Below, piece by piece: positions 288-2,891 of a stretch of 5,688 nucleotides of DNA. The stretch spans positions 1-5,688 of the forward strand of contig JAAUTM010000115.1 in the NCBI GenBank assembly GCA_012031455.1. The letters are read 5' to 3'. The notes under the pieces were generated by a model that saw only the letters and a program-made list of their open reading frames with translations, was not told the DNA's origin and did not search any database. Within the stretch, counting starts at the first letter, position 1. Every line of letters starts with the position of its first letter. The position numbers and the translations under genes were made by a program. Origin of the DNA: Phycisphaerales bacterium (GTDB lineage: Bacteria > Planctomycetota > Phycisphaerae > Phycisphaerales > Phycisphaeraceae).

Positions 288-310
288 TGATTGGTTCCTG
301 TTAATCGAGA

Positions 311-410
311 TGGATATAGGATAATGGATAAAGGATAATGTACAGAAAACAGACTCAATAACGGGCTTTTATCACTACCTTATCCATCATCCATTATCCA
401 TTATCCATTA
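311..410. repeat. Imperfect inverted array of GGATAAT heptamers in the fabD-fabG spacer
   Basis: The left arm (about 311-340) is a run of GGATAAT-type heptamers (GGATATA, GGATAAT, GGATAAA, GGATAAT). The right arm (about 379-410) is the reverse complement type, with units ATTATCC/ATCATCC. The central 38 bases hold no ORF. The 20-mer TTATCCATCATCCATTATCC at 380-399 is identical to 1824-1843 and is the reverse complement of 1398-1417. The left arm ends with GGATAATGTACAGA (333-346), matching 13 of 14 bases of the arm end at 1412-1425. This looks like an ORF-less relative of the cassette at 1388-1853. It fills the gene-free stretch between fabD and fabG, and I see nothing else there apart from the fabG ribosome binding site. 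Confidence 0.85.
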
Positions 411-1376
411 ACTTGGTTCTGCAAAACTTTCCACCTTCACGGAGCGGTCGATGCGTTTCATCATCCAGCCAGCGACTTGCCCGGAGCAAGTTCGACGAAT
501 TGGCCGGGCACATGGGTCATCAACCAGATCATGGATTGTTCCCAGCGGACGGCTCCGGTGAGCTGATCCACCAGACGCTGCTTCACATAATCAATTTTGT
601 TGATTTCGTGATAGATACCGGTGACGTTGGCCATGACAGGTACATCCGGCGAGTTCCACTGAACCTGATCCAGAGCCTCTTTCAAACGGACGGCGGCAGG
701 TTTCATGATCGGGGAATGAAACGCCCCGGCCACCTTGAGCGGCTGAGCCTTGATCCCCCATGTCCGCAGCGCGTTTGAGCGAACGTTCGCAGGCAGTCAG
801 ATGGCCTGAGAGCACGATCTGACCGGGGCAGTTGTAGTTGGCCGGGACCAACACTTCATCGCCTTGTATGGCTTCCTGACAGAGCAGGCGGGCCTGGGCT
901 TCGTCGCTGCCGATGAGTGCGACCATGCCCGATGCGACGGATGAGGCGGCTTCCTGCATGGCTTGCCCACGCAACCTCACCAGTTTCAACCCGGTTTCAA
1001 AATCAAAGGCTCCGGCCAGATGCAGGGCAGTGAATTCGCCCAAGGACAAACCAGCGGCAGCGGCAACTTTTGGGAACCGACCTTCGCTGGCAAGGGCACG
1101 GTAGCAGGCGACCGTGGTGGTGTAGATGGCTGGCTGAGCGTTGTCGGTGCGGATCAGCTCCTCCTCGGGGCCGTTCCAGCATAGGTCGCTGAGTTTGAAT
1201 CCCAGCAGGTCATCCGCCTGTTGGAAGGTTTCCCTGGCGGCGGGATACTTGTCGGCCCATGCCTTGCCCATGCCCACAGTCTGAGCGCCTTGACCGGGGC
1301 AGAGCAGAATGACCGCCGGGGCTGTACGCAGGGATTGGATCGGGGTGGGGGTGGTGGTAGTTGTGGGTTGAGTCAT
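408..1376 (-). CDS. fabD: Malonyl-CoA:ACP transacylase FabD (two frameshifts in the raw sequence)
   Basis: Transfers malonate from CoA to acyl carrier protein, supplying the extender unit for fatty acid synthesis. The corrected protein is about 322 residues, normal for the family plus a short Thr/Pro-rich N-terminal extension (residues 4-12). Visible motifs are GQGAQ at 28-32, the nucleophile elbow GLSLGE around Ser111 (most relatives have GHSLGE), the VRLRGQAMQ helix carrying the substrate-binding Arg, NYNCPGQIVLSG, and AGAFHSPIM with the catalytic His near residue 220. Two indels break the frame: one extra C in CCCCC at 755-759, and one missing base at about 461-466. With both repaired, the tail reads LAGMMKRIDRSVKVESFAEPS and stops at TAA 410-408. 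The ATG at 1376-1374 has no purine-rich Shine-Dalgarno; it lies 44 bases after the four-helix-bundle gene, so reinitiation or leader-independent initiation is possible. Confidence 0.93.
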
Positions 1377-1387
1377 GTGTGTTTATG

Positions 1388-1426
1388 AATGGATAGTGGA
1401 TAATGGATGATGGATAATGTTCAGAC
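1388..1426 (+). repeat. Inverted repeat, fabD-proximal arm
   Basis: Heptamer-based arm whose 1398-1426 segment is the exact reverse complement of 1815-1843. It contains the stop codon of the four-helix-bundle gene (TCA at 1421-1423 on the plus strand). It occupies most of the 44-base gap before fabD, leaving no ordinary ribosome binding site there. Confidence 0.95.
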
Positions 1427-1834
1427 TCTGGTTTTGGTATGACTTTTACTGGTTTGAATGATTCGGGTAATGATGGCGTACAACGCTTTGCTCTCTTCCA
1501 TCAATCCGCTCAATCTTTTGGCGGCAATTTGTTCGCTATCGGCCAGCAACTCCAACCAATACAGGGTCTCACAGGCTTCGCGTTGAGCTATTTCCATGGT
1601 GGTGATGAATTGCCTTCGCGATGAGGCGTGTTGCGCTTCTCGATAATTGGCCCCGATTGACGTTCCGGCCTTGAGCAATTGCCTGCCTAAAACATCCGCT
1701 GTTCGATTCTTGGGCAGAGCAGTAACTAACTTGATGATTCGGCAGGCAAATTGCCTGGTTCGTTTTTGCATCAATGCAGGCGATAATTTTTCACCTGTTG
1801 GATTCGATGTGGATGTCTGAACATTATCCATCAT
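1421..1834 (-). CDS. Four-helix-bundle protein (S23 / rRNA intervening-sequence family)
   Basis: A 137-residue protein with the hallmarks of the four-helix-bundle family first seen in 23S rRNA intervening sequences. These are the block GRQLLKAGTSIGANYREA at residues 50-67, a following SSRRQFITTMEIAQREACET helix, and ETLYWLELL at 89-97. It is predicted to be all-helical and cytoplasmic. The family includes the Avd accessory proteins of diversity-generating retroelements, and its usual function is unknown; binding to nucleic acid has been suggested for relatives. It has no known role in fatty acid synthesis. Residues 1-7 are encoded by the flanking repeat, and the TGA stop lies in the opposite arm. 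Start: ATG 1834 or the adjacent ATG 1831; an AAGGA at 1845-1841, overlapping the fabH stop codon, would serve either. Unlike most of its long neighbours the frame is intact. Confidence 0.9.
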   Translation of the reverse strand: MMDNVQTSTSNPTGEKLSPALMQKRTRQFACRIIKLVTALPKNRTADVLGRQLLKAGTSIGANYREAQHASSRRQFITTMEIAQREACETLYWLELLADSEQIAAKRLSGLMEESKALYAIITRIIQTSKSHTKTRV

Positions 1835-1853
1835 CCATTATCCTTAATCCATT
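1815..1853 (-). repeat. Inverted repeat, fabH-proximal arm
   Basis: Reverse complement partner of 1388-1426. On the minus strand it encodes the last two FabH codons and stop (ATG GAT TAA, 1852-1844), provides the AAGGA in front of the four-helix-bundle gene, and encodes that gene's first residues. The three positions where the arms differ are exactly the FabH stop codon. Confidence 0.95.
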
Positions 1854-2891
1854 ACAGTTTCCACAAAGACCCCGCCCAGGTCAGTCCGCCGCCGATGCCG
1901 ATGAACAGCACCAGTCGCCGGTCTTGATTTCCCCGAACTCCACAGCTCATGCAGACAGATGGGCACGCTGGCACCGCTGGTGTTGCCGTAGCGATCAATG
2001 TTGATGTACAGCTTGTCTTCGCCCAGCCCCAGCCGATCCCGGGCGCTTTCGAGGATGCGGATATTGGACTGGTGCGGAATGATCATCGCCAAATCCGCAG
2101 GTTTTAAGTTGTGTGCTGCCAGCGATTCATCAATTACTTTTTTGAGCGTTGACACCGCGAACTTGAAGATAGCCTGCCCGTTCATCTGCAGGGTGTTGAA
2201 GTTTCCGGAAAAGATTTTGTCGCCGGGGGGGATGTTGTGCTGATCGCGGGGAACATATAGCTCCTGCCACATCGACCCATCGCTGTGCATGATGGTGTGC
2301 AGCGGGCCTTGTCCGGCATCATCACTGGCGGTGAGAATCACAGCCCCGGCCCCATCGCCGAATAACACACAGGTTCGCCGATCTTTCCAGTCGGTGATGC
2401 TGCTGAGGGTTTCCGTGCCAATGACTGCGATGGTTTTGGCCTGTCCGGTGCGGATCATGGCAGTAGCCACTGAGAGGGCATAAACAAACCCGGAGCAGGC
2501 GGCATTCAAATCCATCGCCGCCGCAGGCACAGCCCCGACATCGGCCACTACCTGAGCAGCGGTCGAAGGGCAGACCATTTCCGGGGTGATGGTGGCACAA
2601 ATCACCATATCCAGCTGTTTGGGCGACATGCCGGCGTTTTTGCAACGCCATGTTCAGGGCTTTGGCAGCCAGATGTCGTGAGGTGGTCCCGGGGTCCACC
2701 AGGTGCCGGGTTTTGATGCCGGTGCGCTGGCTGATCCACTCATCGCTGGTATCCACAAACTTCGCAAGGTCATCGTTGGTGACCAGACGATCGGGTAAAC
2801 CGATGCCTGTGGCGACCAGACGAATACCCGTGGATTGCGTGGAACCGGTGGGGGTGGTTGATACGGCGGAGGGAGAACTTCCTTGACTCAT
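1844..2891 (-). CDS. fabH: Beta-ketoacyl-ACP synthase III FabH (four indels in the raw sequence)
   Basis: Condenses a short acyl-CoA primer with malonyl-ACP to start fatty acid synthesis; a cytoplasmic thiolase-fold enzyme. The corrected protein is 349 residues, slightly longer than the usual ~320 because of a Ser/Thr-rich N-terminal extension (about 20 residues). The catalytic triad is visible: Cys132 in NAACSGF, His273 in IPHQSNIRI and Asn303 in YGNTSGAS. The FGDGAGAV motif is at about 178-185 and the C-terminal GIGGGLTWAG at 332-341. An extra T in TTTTT (2637-2641) breaks the frame near residue 85. Three single-base losses, at about 1928-1934, 1912-1916 and 1870-1873, scramble and then restore the C-terminal frame. 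The ATG (2891-2889) overlaps the plsX TGA by one base, implying translational coupling; a GTG one codon upstream is possible. The last codons and stop lie in the repeat arm of the following cassette. Confidence 0.95.

Follow-up and report, generated by a model that had tools for sequence, protein, structure and literature searches.

An S23-family gene between inverted heptad arrays in a planctomycete fab operon: a candidate one-gene mobile element of the rRNA intervening-sequence kind

The DNA analyzed here, a stretch of 5,688 nt from a Phycisphaerales bacterium (referred to as the window), carries between fabH and fabD a complete S23-family gene that is framed by inverted arrays of a 7-bp unit. 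Judged from sequence comparisons, and with a probability of roughly 0.8, this cassette appears to be a compact, one-gene mobile element of the same kind as the intervening sequences (IVS) of rRNA genes. Elements of this kind would be about 0.43–0.6 kb long and would lie in protein operons, and their arms would also spread as arrays of heptamers.

A framed S23 gene at the fabH-fabD junction

The enclosed ORF (1421..1834, minus strand) encodes 137 aa and matches PF05635 (S23/IVP; E 5.7e-19, 68.7 bits, cut-off 33.8). This is the only Pfam hit between the arms, with neither a transposase nor a Y1-type (RAYT) domain being found there. In transcript sense, the 5' arm (1815..1853) is an array of the 7-bp units GGATAAT and GGATGAT, read on the minus strand, and the 3' arm (1388..1426) is an inverted copy of this array. 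The two arms pair at 36 of 39 positions, including a perfect run of 29 bp, and they contain both the start (1834) and the stop (1421) of the ORF, exactly as an earlier note on this DNA had claimed. The same note described a four-helix-bundle ORF inside an inverted repeat at this junction, and the description is borne out by the PF05635 match, the arm pairing and a predicted structure with four helices (mean pLDDT 90.5). Two features go beyond it: the arms are built of 7-bp units, and a second hairpin (310..410), located between fabD and fabG, consists of heptad units like those of the element arms but encloses no ORF. It is probably a decayed, gene-less copy of the element.

Upstream of the S23 gene lies the 3' part of fabH (1844..2629, minus strand, ACP_syn_III match), the stop codon of which is contained in the right arm. 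The downstream neighbor is fabD (591..1376, minus strand, Acyl_transf_1 match), with its ATG 12 nt away from the left (3') arm, and all three genes have the same orientation. Between positions 96 and 3970, fabG, fabD, fabH and plsX seem to be broken across several frames, and the S23 ORF is whole; given that the fab and plsX genes are split in this way, the window may carry frameshifts or sequencing errors.

On the inverted-repeat score used for the survey described below, the window arms reach 31.5, compared with 26.5 for the highest of 800 control positions taken from other loci. In the predicted RNA fold of positions 1380–1862 (483 nt) the arms form the terminal stem (z -7.4, with 0 of 100 shuffles equally good), and the hairpin at 310–410 gives a z value of -5.6. 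A chance inverted repeat is ruled out by the arm score, the shuffled folds and the survey of S23 loci against controls. An rRNA IVS in the strict sense is also ruled out for the window, since an Rfam scan of it found no rRNA family and the element sits between fabH and fabD.

The best PDB match of the predicted S23 structure is 2RLD (S23 family; BT_0352 of Bacteroides thetaiotaomicron), followed by 2GSC (Xcc0516), and the Avd chains of diversity-generating retroelements (DGR; 8UB7 and 4DWL) match the monomer model weakly (E 0.08–0.3, probability 1.00). The likeness of fold to 8UB7 and 4DWL, together with a published homology between PF05635 and Avd (PMC10053308), would allow the gene to be read as the Avd of a DGR. 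However, no reverse transcriptase (RT) was noticed in the ORF list of the 5.7-kb window (6 of 36 ORFs were scanned against Pfam), and the sole DGR-like S23 locus examined, in the gammaproteobacterial genome G797, has no arms and scores 12. We regard an Avd gene as extremely improbable.

The fabH-fabD spacer was also compared across 392 planctomycete genomes. Among the best 30 FabH loci, two of which had no FabD hit, S23 is present between fabH and fabD in three (L441, L443 and L448). Eleven of these spacers were read: the same three hold S23 and have heptads unlike that of the window, those of L445 and L450 have heptad hairpins without S23, and five are plain. It could be supposed that the window's copy goes back to an old, vertically inherited insertion that is common to several planctomycetes, and that it is now decaying and immobile at this site. 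The three occupied spacers are in keeping with this, as is a tree test in which a single clade of the S23s from the window, L441 and L448 is not rejected (p-AU 0.555); these three also have partly similar heptads. On the other hand, the S23 closest to that of the window lies elsewhere (68% to P0002, or 65% over the tree columns), with those of the fabH-fabD spacers at 32–53%; the heptads differ, both the S23 and the heptad of L443 are quite different from those of the window, and L442, the second-best FabH relative, has no S23 in the spacer. A shared old insertion that has lost its mobility is, on this evidence, rather unlikely. The S23 genes and hairpins in the spacer, taken with best matches that lie outside it, point to an occupation of the junction that was either repeated or long-lasting.

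Two further observations concern the repeats themselves. The hairpin in the L442 spacer repeats with a period of about 9 (CGAAGGACA-like) and may represent a sister class of repeat arrays. The pattern of the window arms, with one mismatch allowed, has one match in the 392 planctomycete genomes; this match lies in G266, the genome that also gave the best hit to the FabH of the window, and the 3-kb stretch around it contains no S23.

Heptad arms at S23 loci in other genomes

An alignment of 39 S23 relatives was used to scan genome contigs and returned at least 80 loci, 77 of them usable, from Planctomycetota, Verrucomicrobiota, Chloroflexota, Bacteroidota, Cyanobacteriota, Acidobacteriota, Pseudomonadota and others. 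Taking as arms any inverted repeat between the flanks with a score of at least 14, arms are present at 62 of the 77 usable loci and at 10 of 800 control positions in those loci. The flanks are also self-similar at a lag of 7 (identity 0.398 upstream and 0.425 downstream, control 0.256), and only lags 14 and 21 reach a comparable size. PF05635 places number between 1 and 23 per genome in 24 genomes chosen from the survey loci, and none of 14 control genomes was positive.

Further samples gave a similar picture. In 13 genomes, which overlap with the survey of 77 loci, arms accompany 71 of 80 S23 copies. PF05635 was found in 77 of 369 Gammaproteobacteria genomes (71 above the family cut-off), with arms at 24 of the best 29 loci, and on plasmids they were found at all six loci fetched from 25 matching records, although three of these six represent one locus in three Planktothrix plasmids, which differ in the length of their heptad arrays. 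Arms are weak or missing at 15 of the 77 survey loci, 9 of the 80 copies from the 13 genomes and 5 of the 29 gammaproteobacterial loci. S23 genes between such arms, which the earlier note suggested looking for at other loci, are repeatedly found in the genome, gammaproteobacterial and plasmid samples, and in at least seven phyla the family goes together with heptad arrays that are mostly private.

Some loci depart from the plain pattern. The S23 arms of L162 (Akkermansia) and L168 (Melioribacteraceae) are made of longer units, and the left heptad arm of L147/L291 encloses a short Nostoc repeat that exists in multiple copies, with matches to it in many Nostoc genomes. G797, a gammaproteobacterial genome of 1.5 Mb (L500–L502), has ten PF05635 places that are alike and one that is partial. 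The place that was read adjoins what appears by eye to be a DGR variable repeat, and the genome may hold DGR cassettes in unusually large number. These copies were rejected as rRNA IVS, as Rfam gave no family in two stretches and the neighbor is like a DGR variable repeat, and for the same reasons they were used as a contrast without arms.

The arms do not have one fixed sequence. For the 80 copies of the 13 genomes, the left flank matches the copy's own right flank in 70 cases, but matches that of another copy in the same genome in only 20 of 678 comparisons; counting only copies that have arms, the values are 70 of 71 and 18 of 532. One acidobacterial genome has arms at 18 of 20 copies fetched, and by eye nearly all of their heptads are different. 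Among 111 non-redundant copies with arms scoring at least 16, arm similarity of 0.5 or more is seen for 32 of 49 pairs of close S23s, compared with 8 of 2733 distant pairs, and the correlation between arm and S23 similarity (0.386) was reached in 0 of 2000 permutations. Since arm similarity rises with S23 similarity, arms and gene tend to travel as one unit. One correction to the earlier note is that the arms frame S23 genes as mostly copy-specific heptad arrays rather than as a constant sequence.

Heptads were then counted in 14 genomes, in matches rather than tracts, so that overlapping registers of one tract are counted several times. The L039 pattern (2 mismatches allowed) gave 204 matches in its own genome; three others had 17, 17 and 21, one had a single match and nine had none. 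The reversed heptad gave 0 in its own genome, and two others had 10 and 1. For L080 there were 300 matches in its own genome; two others had 5 and 7, the remaining 11 had none, and the reversed heptad had 1 to 3 in three genomes. Both heptads are by far the commonest in the genome whose S23 copy bears them, which argues against arms that are scattered genome-wide and untied to four-helix-bundle genes, the outcome that the earlier note had named as fatal to its proposal. Forty stretches picked at heptad matches, with the S23 places already identified in two of the genomes excluded, contained S23 in one case and solo or paired arrays in the remainder, and array length varies among the places holding heptads. 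The density of heptad arrays in gammaproteobacterial stretches was 0 in 200,000 bases with S23 and 0 in 167,333 bases without, an uninformative comparison.

Filled, empty and decayed sites

At the Nostoc site L145, the filled form has a 426-bp element between two copies of TTTTATT, a duplication of 5 to 7 bp depending on the reading. The best 30 of 53 genomes were read, and 17 of these loci have a single 7-mer and nothing else (two as TTTTGTT), two more have a one-base variant in the first letter of the 7-mer, eight are internally deleted but retain the ends and the duplication, one is full and two have other sequence. A second Nostoc site, L391, has a 443-bp element flanked by ATCAT, and through the duplication the following gene regains its start codons; of 15 loci read, four are filled, nine are empty with a single ATCAT and two are otherwise. 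The discrete Nostoc elements therefore measure 426–443 bp. At a third site (L147), the full insert occurs in 5 of 53 genomes, and the 20 read from the other 48 range from nearly empty to two-armed internal deletions, some with other sequence. Other Nostoc genomes carry relatives of the L145 element at different loci (74–86% identity; 20 fetched, several of which share a site), and their alignments run from positions 1–17 to positions 407–425 of the 426.

In Parabacteroides, the insert is present in one of 15 matching genomes (18 searched) and the other 14 have 21–74 nt in its place, the flanking duplication being unresolvable from the sequences compared. Sites L146 and L401 had no clean empty counterpart among the relatives compared. 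The empty sites and target duplications that the earlier note had hoped to find are thus seen at some relatives' sites (L145 and L391) but not at the window's own, where no empty relative among the planctomycete FabH loci compared is near enough to reveal a duplication.

Strong predicted stems, and array lengths that differ between places and between the Planktothrix plasmids, would also be expected if the cassette were a fixed regulatory hairpin, in which an ordinary chromosomal S23 gene regulates itself by means of its mRNA stem, with the heptads growing by slippage and without any movement. Such a hairpin is contradicted by the clean empty sites with single-copy targets at L145 and L391, and the presence or absence of the insert in Parabacteroides and the related elements at other Nostoc loci also speak against it. 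We consider it very unlikely.

The history of a site can be complex. In a tree of the L145 flanks, which has four changes and includes one row with a poor left flank, a single clade of the filled and decayed genomes is rejected (p-AU 1.8e-05). Because these genomes do not form one clade, there must also be precise loss, locus exchange or repeated insertion, and an empty site is not always one that was empty in the ancestor. Decayed L145 copies from different clades share nested sequence (by eye), and this makes either a hairpin-aided, precise loss between the short duplications or an exchange of the locus likely.

Decay removes the gene and leaves the arms. The S23 ORFs that stay intact are under purifying selection in Nostoc, where 12 of them (121 aa, from several loci) have a median dN/dS of 0.145 (range 0.055–0.239, 63 of 66 pairs usable). 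The low ratio implies that selection maintains some function of the gene, most simply one that serves the element. The S23 ORFs of L145 and L391 contain a short in-frame extra, VRGASRR, that is not in the other intact copies compared, as if a small repeat had been inserted.

S23 might also be a passenger, in which case the arms would be MITE-like ends moved in trans by an unrelated transposase, with S23 doing other work, such as RNA-stem binding or persistence. The ends and the 5–7-bp duplication do resemble those of a DNA transposon, arm-only hairpins and solo arrays are frequent at the places read, and the title of the best PDB match of the S23 model gives its function as unknown. A common transposase, however, would have no need of heptads that in most cases differ from one S23 copy to the next and that track S23 similarity, and selection keeps S23 ORFs intact. 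A passenger role is conceivable but rather unlikely, and S23 itself may drive the movement of the element.

Proposed mechanism and comparison with known systems

If the cassette is a one-gene mobile element moved with the help of S23, a plausible mechanism can be outlined. The S23 protein, for which a solved relative offers the model of a homopentamer with an Avd-like fold, would bind its own heptad array, either as DNA or as an RNA stem, and would help the element to copy or insert. We know of no catalytic site or activity in the S23 family, and for want of a known catalytic site a nuclease, recombinase or RT is proposed to be recruited from elsewhere. The examples read have the element between genes, beside stop and start codons, where its stem does little harm. 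Once transcribed, the arms would pair, and RNase III would probably cut the insert out, as in rRNA IVS. In a wider and more tentative form, for which the odds seem a little short of even, S23 proteins would be the mobility factors of a widespread, unrecognized class of minimal elements, the pentamer recognizing copy-specific heptads; the class would include rRNA IVSs as one of its niches, and many of the dispersed heptamers of bacteria (STRR, TAACTGA and GGGAATC) would derive from its remains.

The heptamer repeats of several lineages lack an explained source, and the discrete ends, presence or absence, short duplications and private heptads make both this source and the origin and function of IVS testable. 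Elements of this kind look like an overlooked class of jumping elements. Among the papers listed in searches of the largely open-access literature, none joins non-rRNA PF05635 genes to heptamer arms or calls them mobile. S23 genes inside CRISPR or defense operons may be hitchhikers. A heptad-armed S23 cassette lies between cas2 and cas1 in the Anabaena cylindrica plasmid pANACY.01 (L605), and other cassettes are found after drmD in Planktothrix plasmids and between helicase and N-6 methylase genes in a Chlorohelix plasmid. An association of S23/IVP with CRISPR modules is named in a figure legend (PMC10910872), and insertion may account for it.

With DNA transposons and IS elements, the cassette shares terminal inverted repeats, seen in the window. 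Duplications of 5–7 bp flank the elements at two Nostoc sites. The window element differs in having no transposase gene, its enclosed ORF matching PF05635 only. REP/REPIN-RAYT systems are similar in that dispersed palindromic repeats are tied to the gene that they flank, and REPINs occur in many copies without the gene. Dispersed arrays cognate to the enclosed gene were found in two genomes with such an S23, and the window has one extra hairpin. RAYT is a Y1 transposase, whereas S23 is a four-helix bundle without a Y1 domain, and RAYTs are not known for target duplications. The Avd proteins of DGRs share a similar fold with the monomer model of the window S23, but no RT, TR or VR was noticed in the window among its 36 ORFs, six of them Pfam-scanned.

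Dispersed 7-bp arrays, often at gene junctions, are also typical of the STRR of cyanobacteria, of TAACTGA in Beggiatoaceae (PMC4679880) and of GGGAATC in Xanthomonas, where inverted pairs have been reported (PMC4692102). They differ in that the accessible text of the publications on them draws no link with S23. In a sample that does not include the source organisms by name, the published heptads TAACTGA, GGGAATC, GGGGACT, GATAGRA and GACAGAT were each found beside S23 in 0 of 189 cases, and GGGGATT in 1 of 189, not exceeding the control (1 of 567).

The rRNA IVSs of Coxiella and Leptospira resemble the window element in having an S23 ORF, a length of about 430 nt and complementary ends that give a stem, and differ from it in lying in rRNA rather than in a protein-coding operon. 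A search of S23 loci with six rRNA motifs, run without a positive control, found no rRNA IVS among those covered. IVS elements have been known for more than 25 years and are described as unclear in origin and function (PMC4990558); their mobility is only hypothesized, and an IVS-like excision of the window element by RNase III would be an analogy based on a predicted stem. One Coxiella strain has a 176-bp deletion in the S23 ORF, and the authors conclude that production of S23p in vivo is improbable and think that the RNA is more important (PMC4990558), which speaks against a role for the protein there. The Coxiella IVS is 428 nt long, with an S23 ORF, a 28-bp stem and, ahead of the ORF, tandem heptamers that vary in number between strains (PMC4990558), an anatomy close to that of the window element. 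These published heptamers strengthen the link to rRNA IVS, and the proposal that the window holds the counterpart of such an IVS in a protein-coding operon is supported.
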